Positions 13,681-63,055 of a DNA stretch of 64,000 nt are shown here, piece after piece (the first letter of the stretch is position 1; every line of letters begins with the position of its first letter). The DNA lies in assembly GCF_039555335.1 (NCBI RefSeq), contig NC_092635.1, forward strand, positions 51,294,052 to 51,358,051, given 5' to 3'. Both the position numbers and the translations under genes were made by a program. This DNA is from Amphiura filiformis. Lineage: Eukaryota > Echinodermata > Ophiuroidea > Amphilepidida > Amphiuridae. The notes below the pieces were generated by a model that was not told the DNA's origin, did no database searches, and worked only from the letters and a program-made list of their open reading frames with translations.

Positions 13681-15644
13681 TTAAGGAAAATGCCATTCCA
13701 GCATTCTGTCCATTCCACGCGTCTGGTTCACGCTGACGCGAGCTTTGAGTCTATATCGAAATGGAACAACCTTGTTGGAGTTGCCACGTCGAAAGTCACG
13801 CAGTTGTAGCCCTTCACTTTGCTTCACCTTCTGGAATGACGGCGGTTTTGTAGACTGCGAATCTTTGTTAACTGCCAGATATTCCGCTCTTAAGTAGCTA
13901 ACAAACCAACTCATGTTGTTGAAGTATTCTTGCACGTAAAAATACACGTGATAAATATCTTTATTGATTTCCTCCACCATTGCCTGCGGATTTGAAAGTC
14001 TTGTTATCATCTCCATGTCATCACTGTGGGTATCAAGCGCTGACAAACGTACATTCGAAGCTATGCACACGTCATCATAACGATCATCATAGGGGCCAAG
14101 TAAATACCAATTCCAGTGTTGCGTAATGATCGTTGAGCACCTGTTCTCACGATTAAGAAGCGGCTTCATCACCTTCAACAAAGCTTGCGTTCCTGAATAA
14201 TCAGCAATGTTAGACGTGAATATGCGATCAAATTGATACGATTTGAAATGTGCCAATTGCAATAAGTTGAGACAGTTGCATACAATGACGGATACACTTT
14301 GAGCCCCAGCCTTTATGCTTGCGATAGTCCGTTTGATCTGATCCGATATGAAGGAATGAAACATCACAACCATTGACTTGTTGTAATGGTGCTTCTTCAC
14401 TTTCAGGTAATCCCATTCACTAAATGGCATCAGATGATATTCGGTGCAATAAACAAATCTACCAGACATAAGGATACGTGTGATTGATACGATTTGAAAT
14501 GTGCCAATTGCAATATGTTGAGACAGTTGCATATCATGACGGATAAGCGTTGATTCCCGGCCTTTATACTTGCAATAGTCTGTTTGATCTGATCCGATAT
14601 GAAGGAATGAAACATCGTAACCATTGACTTGTTGTAATGGTGCTTCTTCACTTTCAGGTAATCCCATTCACTAAATGGCATCAGATGATATTCAATGCAA
14701 TAAACAAATCTACCAGACATAAGGATACGTGTGATTGCTGGGGTAGCGTTCACATGGGAGTCTTTCCCCTGTGTAAACAAGTAACCCGTCAATGTGGGAT
14801 TGTCGTACGGAAGACTACAGGCATTCACACCTGGAATGAAATTGCCGTGTTTATCATACTCATCATACGATGGAATCAACTCACTTGGCAATCCCTTACG
14901 GTACATTCTCTGACCTTCTTCCAATTCTTGATATTGGTACAACAATCTCTTGCGCTGTTCTTGGAGATCAATGTAATTTGGATAACCCTTCCTACATTCT
15001 AACTCCAGCCACCCTTTCCATACCGGTCGCATGACAATCATATCTATTTTGGTAAGAAGTTTTAAGGCTCCTCCAGTAACCTTATTAAGATCCTCTGCTG
15101 AAAGACCTAGGAGTGCTCTTAAGCAATCTACCAAAAACGTGTAGTCTTCTTCAGACAAATGAAGAGAATACCAGATGGTGGTGATTCTTTCTGCAATGTT
15201 GGGGTCATCAGAGTACATTATCATCATGTACAGTTGTAGTACATTTCTAGCTTGCACATATGGATCGAAATCATTGAGAACAGTGTGCAAGGTGCCTTTG
15301 AACTCGTTCGGTAAAGACGCAATTGTGTGAATCCAGTTTCTGAGGTTACCGCAGCCTGCAGACAGAATGGAATAACTCCCTTCCAGTGGATCTTGCTTTG
15401 GTGTCTTGGTTGACTTTACATCCTCACTGCATAATTCATTGCCAGGTAGATTCAACAAATCAATAGCTAGTGCATTGCCGACATAGTATGGACATCTCAT
15501 TACCTGGTTCTGAAGATTAACCTTGAGTGATGCAACTGTTGCTTTGATTTCTTGCGTGCATTTTTGACAACTTGGTTTGTGCTCTTTCCAGTGTTTACGT
15601 TGACAGGTTTCTCCGCAGTACCAGGCATTGCAACATGCCGTACA
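13681..15644 (-). pseudogene. Gene A exon 2: MYND/DUF4470-like protein, frameshifted
   Basis: Main exon of the first paralogue. The acceptor is TTTATCACCAG before 15644, and the exon starts in phase 0 with the second half of MYND finger 2 (C-x2-C, YC-x3-C, HWKEH, C). A DUF4470-like domain follows, with SAGCGNLRNW and VLNDFDPYVQARN, then the shared motifs YDNPTLTGY and FSEWDYLKVKKHHY. Going down the minus strand, the frame breaks inside a 251-bp tandem duplication (14232-14733). Reading on, the protein would stop at 14430, giving about 472 residues with exon 1. The remaining C-terminal part (FDRIFTSNIADY, FRRGNSNKVVPFRYR, RGMDRMLEW) is intact in another frame down to the stop at 13681. One 251-bp unit too many accounts for the shift, since 251 is not a multiple of 3. 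I call it a pseudogene or truncating allele; an assembly fault is possible. Confidence 0.8.
14232..14733. repeat. 251-bp direct tandem duplication inside gene A exon 2
   Basis: Two head-to-tail copies, 14232-14482 and 14483-14733, joined at a short ATTG overlap. They differ by roughly 6-7% by eye, mostly in one cluster (14285-14345 against 14535-14596). In that cluster the first copy looks more like gene B than like its neighbour. The duplication shifts the reading frame of gene A. Confidence 0.9.
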
Positions 15645-16420
15645 CTGGTGATAAACAAAACAAAAAAGAAAACCAAAATAAAGATATTATTATCCACTTG
15701 GGAGAAACCAAAAGTAATATTGAACTGACCTACTTAGTATAGTCTTTCCTGATAACTGGATCTACTAGTAGTATATTGAGGGATATTGCCTGGCAATATG
15801 CGCATGCATCATCACAATTTCCATTGTTTTTTGCCTGACAGTATGCACGCGCATCATATTTTGTTCAAGGCTTGTGCTTTTAAAACTATCGGCACATCAT
15901 AAGAATGCTATTGAACAGTGTAGTGGTTGTATGCAGTTCACTCAAACATATCCATATACCAGTCCCTTGCATTGGTTGATAAACATTGAGGTCAACTCAT
16001 CTATAGGCAATTAACATTTTCTGCATCTATATTGCACACACAATTGTACAGCTAATAGTGTTATACATGGTAGCTATTGCAGATAGATCCTTCTTGCGAA
16101 AGCAATTGATTCCATTCATTGCTGTAACAACTGAAATCTGATAACTGCTTCAGGCAAGTGTTTAAAATTTCTCAGTCATTGACCAGGCTGATAAATTTTC
16201 CAAATTGCGAAGGAGAGTGAGGGGGGAGGAGCGGGTGGAGGAGAGGAGATAGGAGGGAAGAGGAGAGAAAGATAGCAAGTAGAAGAAGGAGGAATTGACC
16301 GAGGTTCCCAATTTCACTGTTACCAAGTACTTTTTTCAAACTCATTTCTATTCAGCTTATTTTAATTTTTTTCCATTTATTGATCATACTGATAAAGTTT
16401 GCAAATTGAGAGTAATAGTT
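15645..16420. other. Gene A intron, 3' part
   Basis: The intron of gene A runs 15645-20124 (4480 bp), read on the minus strand from a GTACGG donor to a CACCAG acceptor. This acceptor-side part holds the inverted relative of the 2387-2480 repeat (15782-15850) and a purine-rich GGAG/GAGA tract at 16205-16290. No other gene is visible in it. Confidence 0.6.
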
Positions 16421-16429
16421 CAAGAGATT

Positions 16430-17632
16430 TCAGCTCATATGCACTACAATCGTGCAAATTGTGTTAAAGTTGCCATATTTGGCAGAGTTATAGTACTTAT
16501 AGAGGTGATTAATCTAGGCTGTGGACTGGAACCATTTCAACAACACCCCTCATTTAGTGGAAAAAGGTCATTGAACTTTGAAAAGGAGGTCAAGTTCAAA
16601 GTTATTCAAACTTGCTCAGCCTCAAACCCACACCATCGTCATCCTGTGGCCATAAGGATTCAGAAAAAGTATACTTTGACCTATCTATGACGTGCGGTTA
16701 TGCCGTAATGGGCAAAAATGTAACATTGTGACGTCATGTCTAACTTTGGCTCTGCAGGGGGCAAAAATGAATATTTGTCTGATTTTGTTGAAATTGGTCT
16801 CAAATTATTCGTCTCATTACAGCAAAGGAGAAAAAGAATAGTCATAACTCTGTAAGAGTATTAAAGTACTACACCCTAGCCAATTTTTGCTTATTTTTGC
16901 ATTTTCTCAAAAATTATAGCACATTGGTGACAAGTAAGATATGTATATTATAGGGGCAAGGACTACAACTACTGCATTGAAAATTCAGCAACTCAAGGCA
17001 AGTAGTTATTGATTTATTGATCAAATATTGGTTTTCCCTCATTTTTGACTGTAATTCCACAACAGTTGTCTGTGCTGAAATAAAATTTCCATCCAGTGTA
17101 GCAGTTGTAGTCCTTGCCCCTATAATATACATATCTTACTCGTTACCAATGCTATATAATTTTTGAGAAAAATGCAAAAATAGGCACAAAATTGGGCAGG
17201 GGTGTAGTACCCCCTTAACCAGGTAACAACAATTGTCACGGTCAAATTGACTCGATATAGAATTCAATGCGACTCAGTGGATATTGTCCTATTTTGCTTT
17301 ATTACCAAGGTAACGAAATATCCTGCAGAGCAGAGGGAAACTATTCTTTTTCTGATTTCTCATGACAAAACAAATAGTTTGAGACCATTTTCAACAAAAT
17401 CAGAGCAATTTTCATTTTCGCCCCCTGTCATGCCTGTGGAGTCCAATCAATTTTGAACTTAACCACTGTGTAAAAGTTCAGTGACCTTTTCCCACAAAAT
17501 ATGGGTGCTGTTGAAATGGCTCCATAGCCTATAATGATTAGCTCTATAAGTACCGTATCTCTGCCAAATATAGCAAATTTAAAATGATTTGCACTATGCT
17601 TACGGCAATCTATTGGACTATAAAATATCACA
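16430..17632. mobile_element. Large fold-back element interrupted by a TTAA family B MITE
   Basis: Arms of about 400 bp pair across the region. The left arm has TATTTGGCAGAG, TACTTATAGAG, CAACACCC, AAAAGGTCATTGAACTTT, CTGCAGGGGGCAAAAATGA and TTGGTCTCAAA in order, and the right arm mirrors these words. The interior between the arms is taken by the TTAA element at 16861-17218. A related but shorter fold-back lies at 39450-39893. It sits inside the gene A intron and is non-coding. Confidence 0.7.
16861..17218. mobile_element. TTAA family B fold-back MITE, copy 2 (nested)
   Basis: 358 bp bounded by TTAA, with CTACACCCTAGCCAATTTT at the left mirrored at the right, and the GTATATTATAGGGGCAAGGA word in both arms. 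Inserted within the larger fold-back of the gene A intron. Confidence 0.85.
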
Positions 17633-17639
17633 CACATTA

Positions 17640-18335
17640 AGCACATAAAGAAAGTTCAAAAATTATAAGATGACAAAAGAACAATTCAAAAGATAACAAA
17701 GAAAGACAAAAAAGAAATCAATAACACCAACACAACAGACTAAATAAGTGCATGAGGGGAAGAGACAGAAAGAGATTGGGCTGAAAGCAAAAGGAGAGGG
17801 AGGGGAAAAGAAGAAGAGGGAGACACGCATGATGCTTTTAGTCTCAAATCTTTTTAAAGTGTCACATAAATATGGACCAGTCTAACATCAAACTTGAGTT
17901 CGACCTGCTGTAGGCCTATCCTGCCAGTAAAATCTAATAATACGATGAGAGACATGAGCAAGAAGGGCGCTTAACATTTCAAACACAGGTTTTCCACATA
18001 TCTTGTCTTATCCAGCTTTTATTGACAGATATGAGTATGATTATGTAACAATGAGATCAAGTCACAGATCAAGTCACAAAATCACTTGCGCTGTTGTTTC
18101 TGAACGATAAACTCCCAGAAACTTAAGATATAAATAAAAAAAGACCCTTACTATGAGTATTATGACTCAAAACGAAAAGGTTATCAAATATTTTGAGTGC
18201 AATGCCGTTATTTGTTAGTATGGTCGCTGCTTGCACTCAGTGAATTGCCTAGGACATTTCATGGATTATATACAATCAGTTTATAGTAATTTGGTATTCA
18301 CCATTTGCATAGTGGCATGAAAAAAAATTGAAATA
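17640..18335. other. Intronic non-coding sequence with purine tract
   Basis: Nothing gene-like. A long A/G-rich stretch lies at 17640-17830, followed by AT-rich sequence up to the LINE remnant. Confidence 0.4.
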
Positions 18336-18339
18336 ATAA

Positions 18340-19385
18340 TTGTGCAGGCCAGAAAGACTATCTCAGTTTGAGCCATCATCAGCATCAATCTGCTGCAGAG
18401 CAGGCTACAACAAACTTTCTTCAACTGTTGTGATCTTGGGCAAGCAAAGCAATCCCACTTGGCTGCAGAATCCCTCCAGTATCTCCCAGGAGGCACTGGA
18501 CATACTGCAAGCACAGTGTGGGCGGCCATCCCGGCCTCCCCATCCCATGTGGTGGAACACAAAGGGCACCCTCTTTCACCTGCCTGTTGTCTGCAAGATG
18601 CAGCACATGGCCAAGAAACCCGAGTCGATGAATCCTGACTCCGGCAACCAGTGGAACGGCGCTGGTCAGACTGCAGATTGTATCATCTGGAATCCGATCC
18701 ACATGCTTCATGTCCAGCATGACTCTGCAGCAAGATGACACTGTTGCAAAGGCACTGATCTTGCCCTCCGTGCTCCGGTGACCACCTACGACACGCACCT
18801 GCAGAGAAAGACATCAACACATGCTATCCCAAACAGCTTGTCTCCTGCCCCTCCAAAGGCACCCATTCTCCAAAATGCTGCCCAAGCCAGTGCCCCTCTT
18901 CTCTCCAGTCTCCAACACCAGAGCCCACCCAAGCATTTGAAGTCAGCGACATGGTTGACGGCACCACCACAGATCTCAAGCGCTGGCCGTGGGCATCACA
19001 GCACGCAGTCACACATTCTTTCCCAGGCGCGCCGATGACAAGGCTCAGACCCGTCGCTGCAGCTGCAGTTCCGGGCATGGAAGATTCCAACAGGGCAATA
19101 TCATCAGCAAAATCCAGGCCACTCAGCATCCCAGCAGGACACCTTCCCGACTGATGCAGGCAGGCAACCAGCATCAATTTCAGAAGTTGACCTCTTCAGA
19201 TGGCAGTCTACCCCGTGGAGCACCTGCATAGCATTGACCAAAACCTTTGGTATTCCATAATGCCGCAGCACTGAAAACATGATGGACCAGCTGATGGAAG
19301 GTTTTTTTGAAGTCCACAAAAGGGACTGTCAAGGGAAGTTGGTACTCCTTGAAGCCTTCCAATATCTCCAGTTCGGGCCAGAAAG
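18340..19385 (-). pseudogene. Decayed non-LTR retrotransposon (reverse transcriptase part)
   Basis: This GC-rich island in the gene A intron carries reverse-transcriptase signatures on the minus strand in several shifted frames. In order they are TVPFVDFKKTF (palm motif A, normally FVDFKKAFDSV), VLRHYGIPKVLVNAMQVLHG, GLDFADDIALLESS (the [Y/F]xDD catalytic motif, here FADD), and a C-terminal RIHRLGFLGHVLHLADNRQ / GRPGWPPTLCLQYVQ segment. Frameshifts separate every block, so it cannot make protein. It is a LINE; the clade is not certain. It is interrupted or bordered upstream by the MITE at 19386-19786. Confidence 0.85.
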
Positions 19386-19786
19386 CAGGGGTGGAATTTC
19401 GTAAAGTGCCACAGGAATCCAAGTGGATTCTCGCAAGAGAGTTTTGCGAGAGTCCATGGATTCCCGTAAATGGATTCTCGTTGTACAATCTTGCGGTAGT
19501 CCAAACGGTATTAGGCCTACGTAAAATGCATTCAAACAAACAAATAAACTAACAAAGTTAAGTTTTTAATATATGTGTCATCACACTCTCACTTCCATAT
19601 GTCATTGCATCTTTGGCGACTTTTCCTTTATATTTTGCAGGCTTTGAGTTTTGGCGTGTTGAACTTAAACATAAGTTCGCTGAGCCGATCATTTCCAGCG
19701 GGAGTCCACATGGACTCTCGCAATAGACTTTTACGGGAGTCTCTGCGAGAGTCGACTCTCGGACTCCCGCCGAAATTCCACCCCTG
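19386..19786. mobile_element. 401-bp MITE next to the LINE remnant
   Basis: Perfect 16-bp inverted ends CAGGGGTGGAATTTCG. GAAAG is present directly on both sides (19381-19385 and 19787-19791), a possible 5-bp target duplication. The ends look hAT-like, but that group usually makes 8-bp duplications. Internal TGCGAGAGTC-type words repeat in both orientations. A small palindrome (CTCAACTCATATCATGAGTTGAG) follows at about 19793. Confidence 0.75.
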
Positions 19787-20124
19787 GAAAGTCTCAACTC
19801 ATATCATGAGTTGAGGCTTTCTGGCTAACTGCAATTTGCTATGGAGATGAGGCTATTAAGTAGAATTGTTCTATATCTGCAATATGAAGTTTGATTGGAA
19901 GAATCTGTGGTTGCTGGTGATTATTTTGGTACTAAAATGTCAAAATGGCCAAAAAGTGAAAGTTCACCACAAAATAAGATAATGATTTACAAGCCTAGAG
20001 GTTTGTCATTGCACGTTTTATATATCAAGAGTTGTGCAGTTCAAATTATAAACAGGCAAAACATTAAAAAAAAATTTAGGGAAATAATAAATATCAAATG
20101 TTACAACATAACTTAAACCCGTAC

Positions 20125-20328
20125 CTCTTTTAGTTGCCCAGACTCTTTGCAGCATTTTGGATTTGAGCACTGCTTCGGTTTCCATTCTGCACATTGCGGC
20201 TTGTGTCTCCACTGATCACGAAAACCACATATTTCGCTGCAGTACTTGGCTTCACCGCAAACATCACAAGGAACTTCCTTTTCGATTGGGTTTTCACATC
20301 GCCAACAGCAACCAAGTTGGACATCCAT
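20125..20328 (-). CDS. Gene A exon 1: MYND finger 1 and first half of finger 2
   Basis: Encodes 68 residues starting MDVQLG, the same start as genes B and C. The ATG has a purine at -3 and G at +4. Finger 1 is complete: C8, C11, C21, C24, C30, C34, H42, C46, the usual MYND spacing. The second finger begins with CSNPKCC (C54, C59) and is cut by the intron after LKE, in phase 0, at a GTACGG donor. MYND fingers bind proteins and are typical of adaptor or co-repressor proteins. Upstream in-frame codons add an alternative ATG 11 codons earlier (20361), but conservation favours 20328. Its partner exon 15645 onward is frameshifted, so a full protein is unlikely. Confidence 0.8.
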
Positions 20329-22388: not shown

Positions 22389-22425
<37 letters not shown>

Positions 22426-26880: not shown

Positions 26881-26984
26881 AAATTTTTAAAATGTTTTCA
26901 AAATGTTATTGTAAACTATTTTTGCAAACATTTTTTGCCAAATATTTTGTCAACACTTAAATAACATTTATATATCAACTTTAT

Positions 26985-27178
26985 GTGAAAAATATCAAAT
27001 TTTAATAATTTGTCATAAAATTTGTATTATATCGTGAATTTCAAAAAATTAAAATTATTTGATATTGTAAATTAATTAATCAAGACATTCTTCGTATTCA
27101 GAATGCAATTCGATATGTCTGATGTGCTCTCATGTCCCACAAAAAATACTGTCGAAACGCTCATTCCAGATCCCTTAA
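26985..27178. mobile_element. TTAA family A, right half only
   Basis: Matches the right arm of the complete family A copies and ends CCAGATCCCTTAA. The left arm is missing and a fragment of the CAGCAAACA family (26880-26975) precedes it. Confidence 0.75.
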
Positions 27179-27186
27179 ATAACATA

Positions 27187-27833: not shown

Positions 27834-29577
27834 TACAGGGTGTATCAAAATGATTGGTACCGGACTATGTGACATTTTCAAAAATATATCAAAAATATAA
27901 AATTGCTAATTAATATAGTTTTTGTACTATAAATAGAAAGGGGCATATGTTAACTTATTGATCTATTAATCTGAAGTTGATAGGTTGATGCATCTGGGAG
28001 CTATTGTCATTTAAACGAAGATCGACGTAATCATGGTTTGACTTACACAACACAAGATGAATAGGTTCACTGCTTGAACCATTTATTGCATACATTCTCC
28101 TCAGTATACATAACATAAAACTGCTTTACACATGCTTTTAGAAAGATAGTTCCTGAAGTCCCTGCCTTACAACTCTTACGAGGTGAAATAACTTGAAAGA
28201 ACTTAACACGTGGGATGGGTCCATTCTGTAACTGCCCATATCACATTTTGAAACATTGCAAGTTATAGCATGTTTGCATGGGATATACGCCTTGCTCTTA
28301 GAAACTGTCTCCTAAATCTTCTCTGTACTTCTCCGTAGATTCGTGTCGACTAGTGATTCTTAACTATTAATCCACACCTATGACGTCGCGCTATTGTTTT
28401 ACCGCTCCATTATTTTCCACGAATGGAGCGATGATCACAATAACACGCCATTCGTAAATGCCTTTCTCTTTTCTCTGAAAAGCAAATACTTTTCAGGGAA
28501 AAAGTACTGGCATTTACGAATGTAGTGTTAATATCAATTGCACTTTTGAAAAGCAAGTATTTGCGAAAAGTGCGGTATTGTTATCATCACTTCATTCATG
28601 CAAAACAATGATACGAAAAACAAGAAGAAAATGATTTGCATTAATACAATAAATTGAGGAAGCGGATAGCAACATTTGCACAGTATTGTCATGGGACCTG
28701 AGAGCACATCAGACATATCGAATTGCATGCTGAATACGAGGATTGTCCCTATATCTAATAATAATAATAATTTTGATTTTGTGAAATTCGCGATATAATA
28801 CAAATTATTAAAATTTCATATTTTTATATTTTTCCAAATTTAACAGTCCTCGAAGTAAACTTTATAAATCTAATGATATGTAATTAAACTATAGGCCTAT
28901 GTAGCTGGGATGAAAAGCCGACTCAATTGAAAATTTGACCTTTCATATAGAACTTAAACATTTGTTTCCAAAAAGACCTACATTTTTTAGTGTTTTGAGG
29001 AAAAAATCTATATGGAATACTGTGGAGCCACTCCAATAACTTTAACCAGGTCTAAACTAACCTACACTGTCTACACTCTATAGCCATTCTGCCACACCAT
29101 CTACTTAGTAATCTCAATAATACAATTTAAATTACCGCCCTGGATGGTGTTGATACACAAACTTCTTTCACCCCACCTGAATTATTCAAGTCAATAATAT
29201 TACTCTCAAGCAATAAATATTGATTATAACATTTATATATATTATGAATGAAGAAAAAGGCAAGGAAAATATTAAACATTTCCATGATTTTCAACATATC
29301 ATCCTCAGAAGGTATTTGCAGTAAAATAGAGCTTTGAAAATGGTGCGCTACTGATCCAGCGTTATGATGAAAAGTGTAAAAACACCTACTTTCCTTTAGA
29401 ATCATGTATCTTCTGCATAGAATGTGCTATCTTTATGATCTAAAATTCTTAGAGAAGATCAAACTTCTATAATTACAAATATTTAAACAATTAAGCCCAA
29501 ACTGGCACAAAAAATAGTAAAAAAAATCGGCAAAAAATGAGAAGTCTTCGGTACCAATCATTTTGATACACCCTGTA
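27834..29577. mobile_element. 1.74-kb TA-flanked element with 28-bp inverted ends
   Basis: TA then ACAGGGTGTATCAAAATGAT...GTACCG at the left, mirrored exactly at the right before a TA. The TA target and ACAGGGTGT end are typical of Tc1/mariner-like elements. No transposase frame is seen, so it is non-autonomous or very decayed. A perfect 14-bp inverted word (CATTCGTAAATGCC, 28449 and 28509) forms a hairpin inside, and a TTAA family A half-copy is also inside (28680-29017). Confidence 0.75.
28680..29017. mobile_element. TTAA family A, left half only (nested)
   Basis: Carries the family A order CAGTATT, GGGAC.TGAGAGCACATCAGAC, TCGAATTGCAT, GATGAAAAGCCGA, GACCTTTCATAT and stops after the loop region; the right arm is missing. 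Confidence 0.7.
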
Positions 29578-29579
29578 TA

Positions 29580-36290: not shown

Positions 36291-38042
36291 TTAAGCAAGA
36301 TGCCATTCCAGCATTCTGTCCATTCCACGCGTCTGGTTCACGCTGGCACGAACACTGCGTCTATAACGAAAAGGAACGACCTTGTTGGCGTTGCCACGTC
36401 GGAAGTCACGCAGTTGTAGCCCTTCACTTTGCTTCACCTTCTGAAATGTCGGCGGTTTCGTAGATTGTGCACCTTCGTCAGTTGCCAGATATTCCGCTCG
36501 TAGGTAGTTGATGAACCATATCATGTTGTTGAAGTATTCTTGCAAGAAATAATAACCTCTATATATGTCTTTCCTGCATTCCTCCTTCCTTACCAACGGA
36601 ATTGCAAGTCTGTATAACATCTCGATGTCATCACTGTGGATATCAAACGCTGCCAGACGTTTATTCGAAGCTGTGAAGATCTCATCATCACGGTTATAGT
36701 AGGGACCGACAAAATACCAATTCCAGTATTGGGTAATGATGGTGGAGCACTTGTTCTGACGATTAAGAAGCGGTTTCATCGCCTTCAACACCACTTGCGT
36801 TCCTATAAAGTCAGCAATGTTTGACGTGAATATGCGATCAAATCGGTACGATTCTGACGATTCTCCATATTCTTCGTTGATATATCTTGATATGTGGACG
36901 CAGTTGCATATCATGACGGATACACGTTGAGCCCCAGCCTTAATGCTTGCGATAGTCTGCTTGATCTGATCCGATATGAAGGAATGAAACATCACAACCA
37001 TTGACTTGTTGTAATGGTGCTTCTTCACTTTCAGGTAATCCCATTCACTAAATGGCATCAGCTGATATTCGATGCAATAAACGTATTTACCAGCCACCAT
37101 GAAACGCACGTTATCTTCGAGAATGGTCTCGGTGGTCCCTACGCCTCTTGATTCGCCCTCTGTAAACAAGTAACCCGTCAATGTGGGATTGTCGTACGGA
37201 AGAGGTCTGCCATTCACAGGAGGAATGAAGTTGCCGTGCTGATCGTACTCATCAAACGATGGAATCAACTCACTTGGCAATCCCTTACGGTACAGTCTCT
37301 GACCTTCTTCCAATTCTTGATATTGGTACAACAACCTCTTGCGCTGTTCGTGGAGATCAATGTAATTTGGATAACCCTTCCTACATTCTAACTCAAGCCA
37401 TGCTTTCCATACCGGACGCATGGCAGTCAATGTTCCTTGGGCGATGTGTAGGGCTCCTCCAGTAAGCTTATCAAGGTCATCAGCTGAATAACCTAGCAGG
37501 GCTCTTAGGCAATCTGTCAGAAGCTTGTAATCTTTTTCAGGCAAATGAAGGGAGTACCAGATGGTGGTGATTCCTTCTGCAATGTTGGGGTCATCACAGT
37601 ACTTTATCATCATGTACAGTTGAAGCACATTTCTAGCTTGTACATATGGATCGTAATCATCTAGAACGGTGTGTAGGGTACCTTTGAACCCGTTTGGTAA
37701 AGACGCAACTGTGTGAATCCAGTTTCTGAGATTACCGCAACCTGCAGACAGAATGGAATAACTATCTTTCAGTGGATCTTGCTTTGATGTCTTCTCTGAC
37801 TTTACATCCTCACTGCATAATTCGTTGCCAGGTAAATTCAACATATCTATGGCTAGTGCATTGCCGATATAGTATGGACATCTCAAATTTACGTAGTAAC
37901 TGTTGTACCGTAGAACAACTTTAAGGGGTGCAACTGTTTCTCTGATTTCTTTTGTGCGTTCGTGACAACTTGGCTTGTGGGCTTTCCAGTGTTGACGTTG
38001 ACAGGCTTCTCCGCAGTACCAGGTATCGCAACACGCCGAACA
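36291..38042 (-). CDS. Gene B exon 2: second MYND half plus DUF4470-like domain
   Basis: Intact main exon, 583 codons plus stop, giving 651 residues with exon 1. It starts at a TTTTTAAACAG acceptor, in phase 0, and completes MYND finger 2 (C69, C72, Y77-C78, C82, H90, C94). The DUF4470-like domain follows at about residues 125-240, with SAGCGNLRNW (167-176) and VLDDYDPYVQARN (194-206). The first resembles the glycine-rich loop of a Rossmann fold and the second the acidic end of strand 2. Later shared blocks are YDNPTLTGYLF, FSEWDYLKVKKHHYNKSM, FDRIFTSNIADF, QYWNWY, FRRGNANKVVPFRYR and RGMDRMLEW at the end. DUF4470 occurs in DNAAF3, a cytoplasmic factor for axonemal dynein assembly, and in many fungal MYND proteins. 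No signal peptide or membrane segment is seen. Enzymatic activity is not shown. Confidence 0.9.
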   Translation of the reverse strand, partial: CSACCDTWYCGEACQRQHWKAHKPSCHERTKEIRETVAPLKVVLRYNSYYVNLRCPYYIGNALAIDMLNLPGNELCSEDVKSEKTSKQDPLKDSYSILSAGCGNLRNWIHTVASLPNGFKGTLHTVLDDYDPYVQARNVLQLYMMIKYCDDPNIAEGITTIWYSLHLPEKDYKLLTDCLRALLGYSADDLDKLTGGALHIAQGTLTAMRPVWKAWLELECRKGYPNYIDLHEQRKRLLYQYQELEEGQRLYRKGLPSELIPSFDEYDQHGNFIPPVNGRPLPYDNPTLTGYLFTEGESRGVGTTETILEDNVRFMVAGKYVYCIEYQLMPFSEWDYLKVKKHHYNKSMVVMFHSFISDQIKQTIASIKAGAQRVSVMICNCVHISRYINEEYGESSESYRFDRIFTSNIADFIGTQVVLKAMKPLLNRQNKCSTIITQYWNWYFVGPYYNRDDEIFTASNKRLAAFDIHSDDIEMLYRLAIPLVRKEECRKDIYRGYYFLQEYFNNMIWFINYLRAEYLATDEGAQSTKPPTFQKVKQSEGLQLRDFRRGNANKVVPFRYRRSVRASVNQTRGMDRMLEWHLA

Positions 38043-39334: not shown

Positions 39335-39449
39335 CATTTTCTGCGTGTACAAATTTCTACGTGGACCCATTGAACCCATTCAAATCAGGGGTCAAATTCG
39401 CATGAACCAAAAATGTCGAACAACACATTGATCAGGTCATAAGGTTTCG

Positions 39450-39893: not shown

Positions 39894-40188
39894 AGGGACG
39901 CACCATTTGATACTCAGGGGGGGGTAGGAAGTTAGGGTCGGGGAAGAAATTTATTTTTTTTCGCCGCCGAAGGCGGCTGAAGTTTTTTTTTTTTTCGCCG
40001 CCAAAGGCGGCAAGTTTTTTTTTTTTAATTTCATGCATTATACACAGTTAGGTGGGGAAGGTTTTTGTTTGTTTTTTTAGTGTTGGTGGGGAAAGTTGTT
40101 TTTTTTTTGCTCATGTAGTGGGTGAAGTTTTTTTTTTTTTGAAAAACTTCCTACCCCCACCCTGAGAATCTAATGGTGCGTCCCTAAG
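39891..40188. mobile_element. MITE, TTAAGGGACGCACCATT ends
   Basis: AGGGACGCACCATTTGATAC then TCAGGGGGGGGTAGGAAG at the left is mirrored by CTTCCTACCCCCACCCTGAG and AATGGTGCGTCCCT at the right. The interior contains two CCGCC..GGCGG mini-hairpins in poly-T. Confidence 0.75.
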
Positions 40189-40491
40189 GGATACTAAAGT
40201 AAGCCGGTGTGGTTTTTAACACACTCCGAGCACTGTCATTTTTGTGTATCTGAATGACCTTTAAGATTTCCAGAAGTGGGTCATTTTGGGCCTATTTAAA
40301 AATTGATCGCTTAGATAGAAGGACGCCACATGCCTAACTTGGTGCATTTATCCACTCTGTCACCATCATAATGAAATCGACCTTTATTCTGCCTAACTAT
40401 AAACTGAACCAGTTGTGTTAAACGAAATGAATTTTTTGATTGTGTTAGACACTTTTCGATTTATTTTTAAAATTCTTAGAGGGGAACTCAT

Positions 40492-41245
40492 ATTTAGGTG
40501 TGGGGTATGAACGTTTGGACAGTATTTTTTATGGGACATGAGAGCACATCAGACATATCGAATTGCATTCTGAATACGAAGACTGTCTATATATACCTTC
40601 TGATATCAAATAATTTAGATTTTTAGAAATTCGCGATATAATACACATTTTATGGCGAATGATTAAAAATTGATTTTTTTTAAATATTTAACACTCCTCG
40701 AAGTAAACTTTATAAATATAATGATATGTACTTAGCTGAGATGAAAAGCCGGCGATCAATTGAAAATTTTGAAGTTCGTGGATTTTCCCCCCAAAACACC
40801 AAAAAAAAGGTCTTTTGGGGAAAAATGTATTTAAAGTGTATGTACCTGGGATGAAAAGCCGACGATCAATTGAACAGTTTGACCTTTCGTATTGAAAATA
40901 TGGATTTTTTCCCAAAACACCAAAAATAGGTCTTTTGGGGAAAAATACATATCTTCAATGAAAAGACAAAATTTTCAATTGATCCTCGGCTTTTCATCCC
41001 AACTTAATACACTTTAAGTACATATCATTAGATTTAAAAGTTTACTTCAATTCGAGGACTGTTGAATATCGAAAAATATCAAATTTTAATAATTTGTCAT
41101 AAAATTTGTATTATATCGCGAATTTCAAAAAAATCAAAATTATTTGAAGGACATTCTATCGTATTCAGAATTCAATTCGATACGTCTGATGTGCTCTCAT
41201 GTCCCACAAAAAATACTGTCGAAACGTTCATACCAGAGCCCTTAA
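40492..41245. mobile_element. TTAA family A, copy 4, abutting gene B exon 1
   Basis: Family A ends (GGGGTATGAACGTTTGGACA at the left; GTTCATACCAGAGCCCTTAA at the right) with an extra internal repeat of the loop-side segment (GATGAAAAGCCGRCGATCAA occurs at 40740 and 40850). The right TTAA ends only 14 bp from the exon 1 donor of gene B (GT at 41259-41258). Confidence 0.85.
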
Positions 41246-41259
41246 ACACATAGGCCTAC

Positions 41260-41463
41260 CTCTTTTAGTTGTGCAGACTCTTTGCAGCATTTTGGATTTG
41301 AGCAACGTTTTGGTTTCCATTCTGCGCATTGTGGCGTATGTCTCCACTGATCACGAAAACGACATATTTCACCGCAGTACTTGGCTTCGCCACAGAAATC
41401 ACAAGGAACGTTCCTTTTGATTGGGTTTTCACATCGCCAACAACAACCAAGTTGGACATCCAT
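41260..41463 (-). CDS. Gene B exon 1: MYND finger 1 and first half of finger 2
   Basis: Encodes residues 1-68. The start is MDVQLG; an in-frame TAG lies two codons upstream (TAG AAA ATG), which fixes 41463 as the first possible start in this exon, with A at -3 and G at +4. Finger 1 has all eight ligands (C8, C11, C21, C24, C30, C34, H42, C46). CSNPKCC supplies C54 and C59 of finger 2. The donor is GAG|GTAGG in phase 0. Reading on into the intron adds only five residues before a stop. It differs from the gene A exon at about nine residues. Confidence 0.88.
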
Positions 41464-43660: not shown

Positions 43661-46200
43661 GCATTTAAACATTAGTTCTTTCAAATATGAAACGCTAAAA
43701 CACAAATCTAGAACAAACAATCATTATATTTAGAAAGATATAGCAAACTTTCCATGATAGAGATTGGACCCAAGACAAAGTACACCCAAATTAGGTGACA
43801 ATTCGGAATTCAGCCATGGCTGGAAAAATGGTGTCAAAATACTCTAGTACACTTGATCGATACATAAAGGTGGTTTTTCCCTTTTCGCCAGCCCATTCGG
43901 GGCTGGTACCTGTTTCAGGTTTGGGGTCAGTTTACTCAAGAGATTATATTTTAGTGGTATTGGAATGATTTTTTTTTTACTTTTTGTGGTTAAATTTTTT
44001 TAAATATTTTAATTCGATTTGTTAGGAAAAGTAAGTATGTTTTGCCGTTTCAACGAACGAAAACGAGTGAGTATTACCAAAGTTATGTTTGAACTAATTA
44101 ATTATGACTTTAAAAGTTTAAAGGCCTAAATGTAACAATAATAGTTAATATATATAGCATCATATGGTCAGCAGAAGAAAATCTGACATCACCTATGATG
44201 TCATATCAGTGTCCTTGACCGGGGTCCTTACTCCTTGACCACTGAACAGCGTGATATCATGTTGATAACAGATCTATAGAATCAAAATCTTCATCCTATC
44301 CCCGGATCATATCACAGATTCTCAACAATCTGTGATCATATGGACCATATTGATGTGAAAGTAGTTATCTATCATATCCTGTGTCGTTTTATGGATAAAA
44401 ATGACTCAAAATGTTATTGATGAAATGGTTGCTATCATAAACATCAGTTTTGTCTTTTCAACGGGAAAAATCCGATGCAAAATAAAGTTTTTAGGGCCTA
44501 GCTATAATATGGGCATAATTTATGCATATAGTATTGAACAATGTACCCCATTTGACATGCACTTATAGATAAATAAATTGTCTTACTTTATTAATTTAAT
44601 AACTTCTTTATTATAAATAAAATGACACATAACTATTTGATTCATAAAATTACATTCAACAAAATGATTGAAGAGAAAACACACAAGGCACTAGGCAGAC
44701 TGTTATAGAATGGAGTATGTAAGATGCCATGTCCATAGCTTCGCAGGAGTTTCCGACTAGCAATCAACATGATCAGCACATTCAGAAAAACACAGTTTAA
44801 GAGTGAAGATTGTAGTGAGTAACCAGTCCTTTATAAATGTGCTGGCCACTATCTATTATAATATAGTAGGCTTAAACTATACATTGCTAATTAATTAAGT
44901 TATTTTAAAATAAAATGTACATGTAAGTTAACTCAAACCGGCAGTGTATATATCGAAAGCAGTGAAATCGGACATTCCTAAGCGAAGATATTGAGTTCGT
45001 AAGTTCTGGTATTACAAAATTGGAAATTGAGATATCGTGGGTAAAAAGCTGAAAAGACAAAAAAAACCAACGACAACAACAACAACAACAAAACAAACAG
45101 ACCAGAACAATTTGGAGTACATGTAATGAATTAAAAGAGTTGACATGAGATTAGGAATTAATGTTTTCTGCTGCATCAGTGTGCATGTTCTCACCGTTGA
45201 TGGTTTGGTGGACTGTCATGTAGATGTAAGCGTGATCCTAAAAATGCCTTTCACATTGACCAAAACTAATTACAAGACCTCTTCTACATTGAGGCTGGCT
45301 CTCCCTTTTAAAGGGAATTTTTATTAGAGGGTTTTCTATTTGTTAAAATTTAGGGTCAGTGCAGTGTCAGTGAGGGACACTTGCGTAATCTAATTAAAAG
45401 CTCGTTAGCAACGGCCGATAAAGCGCATGTCAACTTGCAACAGACTGATGTCATAAATTCATATACATTTGTTTATAAACGGGCAAAATAGCCAATGGGG
45501 TTTCTATAACTACTTTGTTGTTCTCATGGTTTATTATTTCGGCAAGAAACCTTTTCCATTCCAATATAGTTATTACTGATCATGTTAAGGTTAGCAACTA
45601 TTTTAAACTGTTGCGATTTGGTAGTTAGCAGCATGTTGCGAGTGGTATAGTCCCCCGGGGGGGGAGGGGGGGAGGCACTCAACATTGGAAGTGACGGTAT
45701 GTGCCTGTCAATAGGCCCCCTCTTTTGAAGTCGACTATACCCGATGACCCCCTTTTTTAAAAGTCATACCCGATGACCCCCCCTTTTTTTTAGTTGCGGC
45801 TACCCAATGACCCCCTTTTTTTGGTTGCGGCTACCCAATGACCCCCTTTTTTTCTAGATTTTAAGAGAGCATCATCAAAATGCAACAAACAAATGCCGAA
45901 ACTTTCAAATTTTGCTCCATTTTTTCAAGATTATGCCGAAACTTTCAAAATTTTGCTCCATTTTTTCAAAAATGTTTCTACCCGATGACCCTTTTTTTGA
46001 AATCTTATACTCAATGACCCCTTCTTTCAAAATATTATACCCAATGACCCCTTTTTTTTATTTTGTTTGTACCCAATGACCCCCTTTTTTAAAATAGCGC
46101 TTTGTTACCGATAGGCCCCTACTTCGCGACACCGGTAGGCACATACGACATACCCGTCAGTTCTAAAGTTGAGTGCCCCCCCCCCCCCGGGGGGGGGGGG
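43661..46200. repeat. 2.54-kb tandem duplication, copy 1
   Basis: Sequence from about 43661 recurs from 46201 with an offset of 2540 bp and only scattered single-base and homopolymer differences. It holds no gene: contents are AT-rich DNA, a 10-bp perfect stem (ATCACAGATT, 44311-44336), a CAA microsatellite near 45073, a fragment of the 27187-27616 MITE (44960-45060), and an element starting at 45652. The junction to copy 2 is a C13G13 palindrome at 46176-46201. Confidence 0.9.
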
Positions 46201-46201
46201 G
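45652..46201. mobile_element. CCCCGGGG-ended element, copy 1 (right flank lost)
   Basis: The left end follows GGTATAGT (45644-45651). Inverted arms GGCACTCAACATT..TGACGGTATGTGCCT and AGGCACATACGACATACCCG..AAAGTTGAGTGCC enclose an irregular minisatellite of TACCC(G/A)ATGACCCCCTTTTTT words. The right end runs into the duplication junction, so the second target duplicate is missing. Confidence 0.75.
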
Positions 46202-48728
46202 CAATTAAACATTAGTTCTTTCAAATATGAAACGCTAAAACACAAATCTAGAACAAACAATCATTATATTTAGAAAGATATAGCAAACTTTCCATGATAG
46301 AGATTGGACCCAAGACAAAGTACACCCAAATTAGGTGACAATTCGGAATTAAGCCATGGCTGGAAAAATGGTGTCAAAATACTCTAGTACACTTGATCGA
46401 TACATAAAGGTGGTTTTTCCCTTTTCGCCAGCCCATTCGGGGCTGGTACCTGTTTCAGGTTTGGGGTCAGTTTACTCAAGAGATTATATTTTAGTGGTAT
46501 TGGAATGATTTTTTTTTTTTTACTTTTGTGGTTAAATTTTTTTTTAAATATTTTAATTCGATTTGTTAGGAAAAGTAAGTATGTTTTGCCGTTTCAACGA
46601 ACGAAAACGAGTGAGTATTACCAAAGTTATGTTTGAACTAATTAATTATGACTTTAAAAGTTTAAAGGCCTAAATGTAACAATAATAGTAAATATATATA
46701 GCATCATATGGTCAGCAGAAGAAAATCTGACATCACCTATGATGTCATATCAGTGTCCTTGACCGGGGGTCCTTACTCCTTGACCACTGAACAGCGTGAT
46801 ATCATGTTGATAACAGATCTATAGAATCAAAATCTTCATCATATCCCGGATCATATCACAGATTCTCAACAATCTGTGATCATATGGACCATATTGATGT
46901 GAAAGTAGTTATCTATCATATCCTGTGTCGTTTTATGGATAAAAATGACTCAAAATGTTATTGATGAAATGGTTGCTATCATAAACATCAGTTTTGTCTT
47001 TTCAACGGGAAAAATCCGATGCAAAATAAAGTTTTTAGGGCCTAGCTATAATATGGGCATAATTTATGCATATAGTATTGAACAATGTACCCCATTTGAC
47101 ATGCACTTATAGATAAATAAATTGTCTTACTTTATTAATTTAATAACTTCTTTATTATAAATAAAATGACACATAACTATTTGATTCATAAAATTACATT
47201 CAACAAAATGATTGAAGAGAAAACACACAAGGCACTAGGCAGACTGTTATAGAATGGAGTATGTAAGATGCCATGTCCATAGCTTCGCAGGAGTTTCCGA
47301 CTAGCAATCAACATGATCAGCACATTCAGAAAAACACAGTTTAAGAGTGAAGATTGTAGTGAGTAACCAGTCCTTTATAAATGTGCTGGCCACTATCTAT
47401 TATAATATAGTAGGCTTAAACTATACATTGCGAATTAATTAAGTTATTTTAAAATAAAATGTACATGTAAGTTAACTCAAACCGGCAGTGTATATATCGA
47501 AAGCAGTGAAATCGGACATTCCTAAGCGAAGATATTGAGTTCGTAAGTTCTGGTATTACAAAATTGGAAATTGAGATATCGTGGGTAAAAAGCTGAAAAG
47601 ACAAAAAAAACCAACGACAACAACAACAACAACAACAACAAAACAAACAGACCAGAACAATTTGGAGTACATGTAATGAATTAAAAGAGTTGACATGAGA
47701 TTAGGAATTAATGTTTTCTGCTGTTTCAGTGTGCATGTTCTCACCGTTGATGGTTTGGTGGACTGTCATGTAGATGTAAGCGTGATCCTAAAAATGCCTT
47801 TCACATTGACCAAAACTAATTACAAGACCTCTTCTACATTGAGGCTGGCTTTCCCTTTTAAAGGGAATTTTATTAGAGGGTTTTCTATTTGTTAAAATTT
47901 AGGGTCAGTGCAGTGTCAGTGAGGGACACTTGCGTAATCTAATTAAAAGCTCGTTAGCAACGGCCGATAAAGCGCATGTCAACTTGCAACAGACTGATGT
48001 CATAAATTCATATACATTTGTTTATAAACGGGCAAAATAGCCAATGGGGTTTCTATAACTACTTTGTTGTTCTCATGGTTTATTATTTCGGCAAGAAACC
48101 TTTTCCATTTAAAAAGAAGTTATTACTGATCATGTTAAGGTTAGCAACTATTTTAAACTGTTGCGATTTGGTAGTTAGCAGCATGTTGCGAGTGGTATAG
48201 TCCCCCGGGGGGGGAGGGGGGGAGGCACTCAACATTGGAAGTGACGGTATGTGCCTGTCAATAGGCCCCTCTTTTGAAGTCGACTATACCCGATGACCCC
48301 CTTTTTTAAAAGTCATACCCGATGATCCCCCTTTTTTTAGTTGCGGCTACCCAATGACCCCCTTTTTTGGTTGCGGCTACCCAATGACCCCTTTTTTTCT
48401 AGATTTTAAAAGAGCATCATCAAAATGCAACAAACAAATGCCGAAACTTTCAAATTTTGCTCCATTTTTTCAAGATTATGCCGAAACTTTCAAAATTTTG
48501 CTCCATTTTTTCAAAAATGTTTCTACCCGATGACCCTTTTTTGAAATCTTATACTCAATGACCCCTTCTTTCAAAATATTATACCCAATGCCCCCCTTTT
48601 TTTATTTTGTTTTTACTCCAATTGACCCCTTTTTTAAAATAGCGCTTTGTTACCGATAGGCCCCTACTTCGCGACACCGGTAGGCACATACGACATACCC
48701 GTCAGTTCTAAAGTTGAGTGCCCCCCGG
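46201..48728. repeat. 2.54-kb tandem duplication, copy 2
   Basis: Near-identical to 43661-46200. Visible differences include CTGCTGCATCAG against CTGCTGTTTCAG, a longer CAA tract (47617-47641), and poly-T/poly-A length changes. No gene. Confidence 0.9.
48202..48728. mobile_element. CCCCGGGG-ended element, intact copy
   Basis: 527 bp with GGTATAGT directly repeated at both sides (48194-48201 and 48729-48736). An 8-bp target duplication suggests a hAT-type or related mover. The interior is a TACCCGATGACCCCC minisatellite; no transposase. Confidence 0.8.
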
Positions 48729-54221: not shown

Positions 54222-54883
54222 GAAAGGGGTATGAACGTTTAGACAGTATTTATTGTGGGACATTAGAGCACATCAGACATATCGAATTGCATTCTGAATA
54301 TGAAGAATGTCCTTCTGATATCAAATAATTTTGATTTTTGAAATTCGCAATGTAATACACATTTTATGGCAAATGATTAAAATTGATATTTTTGATATTT
54401 AACAGTACTCGAAGTAAACTTTATAAATCTGATGATATGTACTTTAAGTGTATGTAGGTGGGATGAAAAGCCGACGATCAATTGAAAATTTTGACCTTTC
54501 GTATTGAAGATATGGATTTTTTTCCCAAAACACCAAAGAAATTAGGTTTTTTGGGGAAAAAAAAAGCCATATCTTCAATATGAAAGGTCAAAATTTTCAA
54601 TCCATCGTCGGCTTTTCCTCCCAGCTACACTTTAAGAATATATCATTAGATTTATAAAATTTACTTCGAGGACTGTTATACATCAAAAATGTGGAAAATA
54701 TCAAATTTTAATAATTTGTCATAAAATTTGTATTATATCGTGAATTTCAAAAAATTAAAATTATTTGATATCAGAAAGACATTCTCCGTATTTAGAATGC
54801 ATTATTCGATATGTCTGATATGCTCTCATGTCCCACAAAAAATACTGTCGAAACACTCAAAACGCTCATTCCAGATCCCTTAA
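54222..54883. mobile_element. TTAA family A, copy 5
   Basis: Left end GGGGTATGAACGTTTAGACA, right end CGCTCATTCCAGATCCCTTA. Near-complete palindrome with the loop around 54540. A family B element begins 60 bp further on. Confidence 0.85.
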
Positions 54884-54942
54884 ACATAGGCTTAAATATA
54901 AGGAAAGCCTATGGAATTTAACACGGCCTGTAAAGTATTTTG

Positions 54943-58221: not shown

Positions 58222-58886
58222 TAAGGGATTTTTCAGTTTGGATCCTGTTAAACAGAAATAGACAAATTCAGATCATAAAATCAACCCATAAAAAGATGCG
58301 TCTACTTATTTTATACAGGAATAGTTTGGTGAGTATAATAAAATCTGAATTTACTAACCAGCAAATACAAAACGTTTTGGACATCATTCGCAAAAGGTGT
58401 GAAAAGGTTTTCAGAAAACGTTTAAATGTCGGGTCGGCTACTCTTTAGTAAACTACGCAAAAAAAGTTTCTTTATGGTTAGGAAATTTACCCACTGTTAA
58501 AATCTAGCAACTACTTTTGTACGTTTGCTAAATAATCGCATGCGGGTGATTTTCCTGCGTATTTTGACACCTCAATCACTACCCTACGACACTCATGAGA
58601 AAAGATATGAATGTTTAAGTAACATAAGGTCGAAAATTTAAATTGCAAAGAAGCCTATTCAATGGTTTTAGAGCTGATTCACTGATCGAAGACGGTTTCA
58701 TTATTCCCGCCTTTTCAATTTGAATTTAAAGCATTTTCCTTGATGCATGTTGGATAATCCTTTGCTTATTGTGCAGATGAATGATCAAAAACAAAGGTGA
58801 GTGGGTACTAAGATATTTACGTTTTGAGGTTTGGAAAGGGATTCAAAACAGGTCATGATTACAGCAGTTTGGAAAATACTGTATGT

Positions 58887-59123
58887 TCAATATCTTCCCA
58901 AGCCAGAAGCCCTGATCTTAACCCCTTGGAGAACCTTTGGGATCAGCTTAAGAGACGAGTCAAAAAGAAGATAAAGGCAGATACAACTCTGGTGGGATTG
59001 CGTCGCATCGTTATCAATGAGTGGAACGTGATTGAGCAAGGTAACATTCGACGCCTCATTAGAAGCATGAGACGCCGCGTGGCTGCTGTAAGGGAAACCA
59101 ACGCTGGACACACAAAGTACTGA
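58887..59123 (+). pseudogene. Tc1-like transposase, C-terminal fragment
   Basis: Encodes about 79 residues. It includes RSPDLNPLENLWDQLKRRV, the diagnostic block around the third catalytic acidic residue of Tc1 transposases (the E of NPLENLW, codon 58929-58931). A LRRIVINEWNVI..IRRLIRSMRRRVAAV tail follows to a stop at 59123. The first two catalytic aspartates and the DNA-binding part are absent, so it is inactive. The parent element is non-autonomous. Confidence 0.88.
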
Positions 59124-60768: not shown

Positions 60769-62592
60769 TCATGGGATGTACCATTCCAACATCCGATCCA
60801 TACCACGAAGTAAATTTACTCGCCGTACATTTCGTCGGTACCGAAAAGGGACGACTTTGTTCAGTTCCCCACGTCTGAAATCACGTAATATCAATCCTTC
60901 TCTGTGTTTCACCTCCTGAAAGGGTGGTGGTGGCGCTGCCTTGACGGTGGTTGAGGCACCCACTGGTGCCGCTTTTGGAATACAGGCTACGTCTCGTCCT
61001 AATCCTAAATGCTCAAGTGCGTTCTGCATGTTAACAACATTTCGTAACTCACCGCTGACGTCATCAAGAGGTTCGTTGAATGCTACGTACTCTGCTCTCA
61101 AATAACGGACGAAATAAATCATGTAATTGAAATACTCTTGAAAGAAACACGACCCTCGTGTCATTGCTTCAAAGATGTTCAAAGGTGCTTCCTTTGCGTC
61201 GACGTTGATGTCTTTGACGGCTGCAAGGGCACAATTGAAGATGACTTCACGGCGACCTTCGCCTGAAGATTCAGGGCCGGTTATCCTCGCATCTGGAAAC
61301 ATACCATACCAGTTCCAGTACTGAGTGACAATCACCGAGCATTTATTTGCGTGATTCAGGTAAGGCGTCATGACTTTGAGCAACGGCTGTGTTCCCGCGT
61401 AGTCCGCCATGTTGGACGTGAAGATGCGATCAACTTTGCATAATTCAGGATTGAGTCTTACAGGTAGCTCGAGGCAATTCCATACGATGAAGGAAACGGT
61501 AAGAAGATCAGCTTTTAAGCATCTCAACGCTTGCTGTATCTGATCCGCGATGTATCCATGGAACATAACTATCATTGATCTGTGGTAGTGGTTCTTCTTC
61601 ACTTTCAGATAATCCCATGAACCAAATGGAGTCATATCCTCTACAATGCAATATACAAACTCTAACTTCTTCGGCGATGCGAGAATCCTCTGTATTTCGC
61701 TAATATCGATCCCTCCAAGGGGCGGAAATTTGTAGCCAGTCAACGTTGGATTGTCGTATTGAAGATCATCACGTTTTGATCCAAGTGGCTGGAAGTTTCC
61801 AGTTGCAAGATAATCGTCATACGATTGCACAAACTCATCTGGAAGCTCTTTCTTGTACACAACGATACCTTGAGCTGCATCTGGCGAGTTTCTAAACCCT
61901 TCCTGCCTTTGTTTGTGAAGATCAATGTAGTTGGGATGACCTTTGCGGCATTCTAGACTGAGCCATGATTGCCATACCTCTCGCATGGGAGCCATATCTG
62001 CCTCTGTTAGCCGTATGATGCCTCCGGTTATCTCAATCAAACTAGAGACTGTAAGATCTTGAAGTGCCGTAAGACAATTCACAAGTAAGTTGTAGTCCTT
62101 TGCAGATAGTTTAAGCGAGTACCAGATATTGGTGATACTTGTGGCTATATCAGCTTCATCTTGGTGTATGACCATCATGTAGAGTTGCAACACGTTTCGG
62201 GCTTGCACAAATGGATCAAAATCATTGAGAAAGGTGTGCAGCTTGCCTGAAAACTCTGCTGGTAGAGACGCTACCGTATGGATCCAATTTCGTAAATTAC
62301 CACAACCGGCTGATAAAATGAAGTAGTCGCTTTTCAGAGGATCTTTGTCATCTGGTTCCTGCTTACTACTGCACTCATTTGCCTGAACGTTAAGCATGTC
62401 GACTGCTAGGGTATTACCGAAGTAATATGGAACACCTAAAGGAGTACCACGCCGCTGTTGAAAATAGCTCTGTAGGGCTGCACCTTTGGTGCGTACTTCT
62501 TGGGTGCGTTCCCGACACTTGTGTTTGTGGTCTTTCCAGTGTGTCTTTTGGCAAACTTTACCGCAGTATGAAGCTTCGTTGCAAGAGGAACA
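60769..62592 (-). CDS. Gene C exon 2: second MYND half plus DUF4470-like domain
   Basis: Intact main exon, 607 codons plus stop, giving 676 residues with exon 1. The acceptor is TTATCTCTTGCAG, a good pyrimidine tract. It completes finger 2 (CSSCNEASYC, then VCQKTHWKDHKHKC). The DUF4470-like domain follows (about residues 130-240), with SAGCGNLRNW at 163-172 and FLNDFDPFVQARN at 190-202. Blocks shared with A and B: YDNPTLTGYKF, FGSWDYLKVKKNHYHRSM, VDRIFTSNMADYAGTQ, QYWNWYG, FRRGELNKVVPFRYR and RGMDRMLEW near the end. It differs by an extra alanine/proline-rich linker (around VKAAPPPPF) before the C-terminal block. It is the most diverged of the three, perhaps 55-60% identical to B by eye. Function as for gene B is inferred from family only: likely a soluble MYND adaptor or assembly-type factor. 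Confidence 0.92.
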   Translation of the reverse strand, partial: CSSCNEASYCGKVCQKTHWKDHKHKCRERTQEVRTKGAALQSYFQQRRGTPLGVPYYFGNTLAVDMLNVQANECSSKQEPDDKDPLKSDYFILSAGCGNLRNWIHTVASLPAEFSGKLHTFLNDFDPFVQARNVLQLYMMVIHQDEADIATSITNIWYSLKLSAKDYNLLVNCLTALQDLTVSSLIEITGGIIRLTEADMAPMREVWQSWLSLECRKGHPNYIDLHKQRQEGFRNSPDAAQGIVVYKKELPDEFVQSYDDYLATGNFQPLGSKRDDLQYDNPTLTGYKFPPLGGIDISEIQRILASPKKLEFVYCIVEDMTPFGSWDYLKVKKNHYHRSMIVMFHGYIADQIQQALRCLKADLLTVSFIVWNCLELPVRLNPELCKVDRIFTSNMADYAGTQPLLKVMTPYLNHANKCSVIVTQYWNWYGMFPDARITGPESSGEGRREVIFNCALAAVKDINVDAKEAPLNIFEAMTRGSCFFQEYFNYMIYFVRYLRAEYVAFNEPLDDVSGELRNVVNMQNALEHLGLGRDVACIPKAAPVGASTTVKAAPPPPFQEVKHREGLILRDFRRGELNKVVPFRYRRNVRRVNLLRGMDRMLEWYIP

Positions 62593-62848
62593 CTGCAAGA
62601 GATAAAGAATAATAAATATCAGAATATAATCAAAGGATATTCAACATCCAAAAATGTATGAATCTTTCTTGAAAACTACATTTCAGTGTGGCCTTCAAAT
62701 TGATGATTCATTAATCGCATATTGGGAAGATATTTTCTGATTTGTTTTATCTTCCATTTTTTTACGTTCTTCGTGATCATCAACATAAGAAAAGGAGCAT
62801 AATACTTACACAGCATATCAGTTATACAAAGATTGATGCGTCTCTTAC
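62593..62848 (-). other. Gene C intron (256 bp)
   Basis: Short phase-0 intron with a GTAAGAG donor and TCTCTTGCAG acceptor, at the same protein position as the 3.2-kb and 4.5-kb introns of B and A. No mobile element inside, so it is probably closest to the ancestral form. Confidence 0.85.
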
Positions 62849-63055
62849 CTCTTTCAATGCCTGACGAGAATCGCTGGTACATGTTGGATTACTGCATCGT
62901 TTTGGTCTCCATTCCTCACACTCTGGCTGATGCCTGTATTGATCTCGACGACAACATGTATCTGAACAATACTTGGCTACACCACATTGACGACAATTCA
63001 CTTCTCGTGCGATGGCATTCTCACATCGCCAACAATGACCAATTACAACGTCCAT
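62849..63055 (-). CDS. Gene C exon 1: MYND finger 1 and first half of finger 2
   Basis: Encodes residues 1-69, starting MDVVIGHCWRC in a strong context (AAC ATG G). Finger 1 ligands are C8, C11, C21, C24, C30, C34, H42, C46. CSNPTC opens finger 2, and the exon ends after LKE in phase 0 at GAG|GTAAGAG. Without splicing the frame would add eight residues and stop. The motif spacing is identical to genes A and B, one residue longer before the intron. Confidence 0.9.

Follow-up and report, generated by a model that had tools for sequence, protein, structure and literature searches.

A tandem array of three double-MYND, DUF4470-containing genes in Amphiura filiformis, one of them with a frame-breaking internal duplication

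The 64,000-nt stretch of Amphiura filiformis DNA analyzed here (the window) carries a tandem array of three paralogous two-exon genes, all on the minus strand, whose products combine two MYND zinc fingers with a DUF4470 domain. The genes, termed A (13681-20328), B (36291-41463) and C (60769-63055), had been noted in a preliminary description of this DNA, the coordinates and common strand of which prove exact, as do the protein lengths of 651 residues for B and 676 for C, neither of which has an internal stop. The array is real, its domain-level naming is correct, and it represents a fairly ordinary tandem gene family. B and C are open throughout, whereas exon 2 of A, as sequenced, is not a single open frame as a result of a 251-bp duplication that had been overlooked. 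MYND-MYND-DUF4470 is a little-studied domain combination, and together with a copy A that bears a single lesion it keeps some interest.

Exon 1 of gene A (20125-20328, minus strand) contains the start codon, the first MYND finger (residues 8-46) and the first ligand pair of the second finger, and is followed by an intron of 4480 bp and by exon 2 (13681-15644, minus strand), which encodes the remainder of finger 2, the DUF4470 domain and the C-terminal region, with the frame broken by the duplication. In gene B, exon 1 (41260-41463, minus strand) is placed by the gene model and Pfam and is separated by an intron of 3217 bp from exon 2, a full open frame that extends through the stop codon (36291-38042, minus strand). 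The corresponding parts of gene C are exon 1 (62849-63055, minus strand), placed on the same basis, an intron of only 256 bp and a full open exon 2 through the stop codon (60769-62592, minus strand). The three introns have GT..AG sites in phase 0 and interrupt the protein after residue 68 in A and B and after residue 69 in C, separating the first ligand pair (C-x4-C) of MYND finger 2 from the second. As finger 2 is whole only once the transcript is spliced, and this is common to A, B and C, exons 1 and 2 are tied together, and the alternative that they belong to separate genes is ruled out by the shared point at which the intron splits the finger. A chance open frame is likewise excluded: given the local frequency of stops, a stop-free run of 584 codons has a per-start log10 P of about -16. 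Acceptor-like sequences, read by eye, precede the ATG at 20328 in A, 41463 in B and 63055 in C by a few to some 40 bases, which suggests a 5′ non-coding exon.

The proposed order of two MYND fingers and a DUF4470 domain is borne out by Pfam, which finds PF01753 twice and PF14737 once in each of B and C above the Pfam cut-offs; both the DUF4470 domain and the second finger, on which the proposal had been made to hang, are thus present. Matches to PF14737 (DUF4470) have E-values of 7.3e-15 in B, 6.3e-17 in C and 4.7e-18 in the 5′ open frame of A, with scores of 55.3, 61.9 and 65.6 bits, respectively, against a curated cut-off of 25, and span profile positions 2-95 or 2-96 of 97. Converted by hand from the Pfam residue positions, they are located on the minus strand at 15162-15482 in A (residues 69-175 of its 5′ open frame), 37548-37868 in B (protein residues 127-233) and 62110-62421 in C (protein residues 127-230). 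For zf-MYND (PF01753; cut-off 22.7), the whole-protein scores are 36.4 bits for spliced B and 41.9 for C, with two stretches each, and the pieces of A, each searched apart, reach 24.4 bits with exon 1 and 25.6 with the exon-2 frame. Exon 1 of B alone falls narrowly below the cut-off at 21.8 bits, whereas the spliced protein passes. The C4-C2HC zinc-ligand pattern occurs twice in each of the three paralogues, the second copy starting with C-x4-C. The C-terminal 420-450 or so residues that follow DUF4470 in B and C match no Pfam family at E-values up to 1, and at the same threshold there is no match to DUF4471 in B, C or the A frames and none to a SET domain. In the 3′ frame of A the sole match, to PF24820, is at chance level (13.9 bits; cut-off 28.1), and a search of NCBIfam returns a single match for the B exon-2 frame (E 0.24; 10.1 bits, where the cut-off is 233) and none for C.

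The lesion in gene A is a tandem duplication within exon 2 in which copy 1, the 5′ one in the gene (14483-14733, minus strand), and copy 2 (14232-14482, minus strand) differ at 16 of 251 bases. With a unit of 251 bp, not a multiple of 3, the duplication leaves exon 2 as two open frames that overlap, 15686-14430 and 14667-13681. By comparison with B, 10 of the changes are confined to copy 1 and six to copy 2, the end of the stretch aligning poorly to B. Outside the duplication both parts of A are stop-free, and amino acid changes polarized with C as outgroup number 17 in A and 19 in B among 445 aligned codons of the 5′ part (59 ambiguous; up to four codons past copy 1 are included out of frame) and 17 in A and 14 in B among 255 aligned codons of the 3′ part (39 ambiguous), with the duplicated stretch entering both counts since copy 1 is assigned to the 5′ part and copy 2 to the 3′ part. 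The protein of A therefore evolves no faster than that of B. Simulations of neutral decay (n=300), in which both duplication copies are counted in the coding sequence of A and indels are ignored, predict about 2.9 stops in A at 3.2% divergence per lineage, with zero stops in 5% of runs; at 2% the expectation is 1.9 stops, with zero in 13%, and at 1% zero stops are obtained in 42%. A gene long dead is rejected on the absence of stops, the constrained sequence, the rate similar to that of B and these simulations, and a recent lesion, joined haplotypes or an assembly error accounts for A more simply than an old pseudogene.

Three explanations of the duplication can be weighed against these data. 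That A is a recent pseudogene, its frame destroyed by the duplication and the remainder still undecayed, has a probability somewhat short of even. The unit length abolishes the frame, there are zero same-register GT..AG pairs that would remove exactly one unit, neither copy contains AGGT, and the absence of stops fits a young event, as in the 42% of simulations at 1% divergence. If the 16 differences date the event, however, the roughly 2.9 stops predicted contrast with none observed, an outcome seen in 5% of simulations, and the rate of A, no higher than that of B, also argues against a pseudogene; such dating is invalid if diverged alleles recombined. A less probable but still substantial alternative is that the duplication is artefactual, a product of assembly or of haplotypes, and that the true gene A is intact. 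The presence of one lesion only in otherwise stop-free, constrained coding sequence is consistent with this, and the 6% difference between the copies would fit the joining of two divergent alleles, whereas a 4-bp microhomology (CAAT) read by eye at the bounds of the unit is as expected for an ordinary tandem duplication. It is improbable that an intron gained from the 251-bp duplication masks the frame break by splicing. Intron gain by duplication of this kind is documented, also in cases lacking the AGGT signal (PMC4974935). In a scan of A for positively scoring sites and introns of 60-500 bp, 66 donor-acceptor pairs within 15000-14000 restore an open frame, and the top two donors score 9.00 and 8.59, near the 8.78-10.26 of the real donors, the site weights being approximate. 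Against such an intron stand the missing AGGT and same-register pairs noted above, a best acceptor of 4.33 among the 15 of 66 pairs listed, below the 4.82-7.57 of the real acceptors, and the position of the best donors upstream of the duplication, so that on our reading conserved residues would be lost as well.

Substitutions among the paralogues show purifying selection, and B and C are under purifying selection. Between A and B, dS is 0.365 and dN/dS 0.34 in the 5′ part and 0.312 and 0.52 in the 3′ part, and between A and C the 5′ part gives a dS of 2.0 and a dN/dS of 0.19; the 3′ part of A-C and the B-C comparison are not estimable, with C saturated or nearly so in dS against both A and B. 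In each of the five comparisons synonymous changes per site exceed nonsynonymous ones, with Fisher p values of 1e-3 to 5e-58 on rounded counts. Protein identity is 359/454 (5′ part) and 189/267 (3′ part) for A-B, 242/447 and 133/253 for A-C, and 339/620 for B-C. The suggestion of possible functional diversification is less well supported, as dN/dS values of 0.19, 0.34 and 0.52 point to conserved function rather than to diversifying selection, and the family was overstated as locally expanding, given an A-B dS of about 0.31-0.37, near saturation of C and a broken frame in one of three copies. The longest identical codon run between A and B, 22 of 386 codons, has a length that 35 of 5000 shuffles reach or surpass, and may be a conserved patch or the product of gene conversion.

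Homology between A and B at the DNA level is nearly confined to exons, the exceptions being 86 bp directly after the stop codon (86%), another 33 bp farther downstream and three intron scraps of 39-46 bp, and no intron or flank homology of C to A or B is found in the window. The dS values together with this scarcity of non-exon homology indicate that the array is old, with A and B as the younger pair, and a recent amplification is rejected on the same two grounds. The array would most likely have originated by successive gene-sized duplications, the intron and intergenic DNA having later been replaced through transposon turnover. No more pieces of the family occur in the window, as tblastn with B and C (E up to 10) returns only matches of E at least 2 beyond the three genes, one weak match (C residues 80-139, E 2.0, 20251-20009) overlapping A exon 1.

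The claim that these are the only host genes in 64 kb is supported but not proved. In a codon-usage scan trained on most of the same exons, the top seven of the 30 segments listed are the exon pieces of the three genes, with a lowest score of 23.6 against 19.3 for the next segment, which is in the A intron. Ranks 8-10 are taken by a GC-rich stretch in that intron, a stretch antisense to B exon 2 and a transposase remnant, and the Pfam search outside the three genes covered 10 other open reading frames of the window. Four pieces of the GC-rich stretch (18281-19548, minus strand, and hence the same strand as A) were searched with Pfam and none matches; by eye, its residues resemble those of reverse transcriptase. 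The remnant (58812-59123, plus strand) is Mariner/Tc1-like and matches PF13358 with 24.7 bits, below the cut-off of 28.6.

Elsewhere the window resembles spacer DNA rich in transposons. One repeat, about 640 bp long and MITE-like by eye, aligns with itself in both directions and is present at 40493-41258, 3918-4585, 11745-12402, 54224-54884, 28654-29013 and 26968-27179; alignments of its copy in the B intron stop at distances of 1-2 to about 13 or more bp from the donor of B exon 1. Between B and C, 43661-46181 and 46201-48726 form a 2.5-kb direct tandem duplication, 98.3% identical, that is either recent or an assembly or haplotype duplication. ARAGORN reports a tRNA-Gln (CTG) at 2556-2633 (plus strand) that is absent from Rfam at gathering score, a threshold at which Rfam gives zero matches in all, and which is perhaps a tRNA-derived repeat. 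A 127-bp satellite-like array occupies the window end (63489-64000), upstream of gene C.

With regard to function, the alignment of the three paralogues contains an invariant glycine-rich motif, ILSAGCGNLRNW (the GCG motif), in one of the longest invariant runs, and a conserved acidic motif, N/D-D-Y/F-D-P (D-x-DP), about 26-28 residues past its second glycine. Read by eye, the two resemble class I methyltransferase motifs I and II. The proteins would accordingly resemble class I (Rossmann-type) S-adenosylmethionine methyltransferases, with a cofactor pocket in the DUF4470 core formed by ILSAGCGNLRNW and the acidic motif, and the paired MYND fingers would bind a partner or substrate peptide, on a logic like that of the single finger in SMYD enzymes, and so tether or guide the methyltransferase-like domain. 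This arrangement of methyltransferase-like domains guided by MYND fingers is considered, by analogy with DNAAF3, the best explanation of the MYND-MYND-DUF4470 proteins, with an even chance of being correct. Recent papers (PMC12633730, PMC11020789) describe DNAAF3 as similar to SAM-dependent methyltransferases and as a requirement for the methylation of dynein.

Nearly as likely is a role as non-enzymatic adaptors, in which the fingers and a catalytically dead DUF4470 scaffold gather partners such as chromatin or chaperone clients. MYND fingers are established protein-binding modules, and DUF4470 could be a domain that binds without a cofactor. With a profile built from the three paralogues, PDB sequences give 38 matches at E up to 10, none of them to a class I methyltransferase: 37 run through the MYND finger (SMYD proteins included), and the remaining match (E 1.1) is to a different protein; B alone retrieves 13, of which 11 are through the finger and two unrelated (E 0.67 and 1), again with no class I methyltransferase. 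The AlphaFold model of the exon-2 parts is unusable for the fold at a mean pLDDT of 34.5. The invariance around the glycine-rich motif would exceed the needs of a dead pocket and argues against an adaptor. A much bolder and quite unlikely extension is that the array represents an animal double-MYND family of DNAAF3-like methyltransferases, apart from DNAAF3 itself and long kept in tandem, that would carry out an undescribed peptide-directed protein methylation, with A perhaps surviving by means of a duplication-made intron.

In the literature searched, DUF4470 and PF14737 are very rarely named, no paper was found on DUF4470 together with MYND, and none of the titles listed concerns such a family. 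Candidate relatives in contig collections did not hold up, with 0 of 42 pattern matches confirmed in the viral collection and 0 of 41 in that of prokaryote genomes. Among characterized proteins, the SMYD (SET and MYND) lysine methyltransferases are similar in joining a MYND finger to a SAM-dependent domain, the latter a proposed one in A, B and C, and the three-paralogue profile reaches SMYD3 among PDB sequences via the MYND finger only (E 0.07). The SMYD enzymes differ in having SET, to which A, B and C show no match (E up to 1); SET and DUF4470 are unrelated domains, and the proposed catalytic fold would likewise be unrelated. Fungal proteins that combine MYND with DUF4470 have the latter domain in common with A, B and C. 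One DUF4470 (PF14737) cluster, marked +2, is included in a gene content evolution table for the fungus Chondrostereum purpureum (PMC6396904), in a paper whose main text has zero occurrences of MYND. A third comparison is with DNAAF3 (PF22, axonemal dynein assembly factor 3), the domains of which are given as DUF4470 and DUF4471 in PMC8565470. A, B and C have DUF4470 (PF14737) in common with it and differ in the two N-terminal MYND fingers, where that source names the two DUFs, and in lacking any match to DUF4471 with E up to 1; judged by the pairing of DUF4470 with DUF4471, they would not count as DNAAF3 orthologues. As DNAAF3 has lately been proposed to be a methyltransferase, a two-exon MYND-DUF4470 family of this kind, in which DUF4471 is not detected, would offer a compact setting for asking whether SAM is bound by DUF4470 alone and what this domain modifies.
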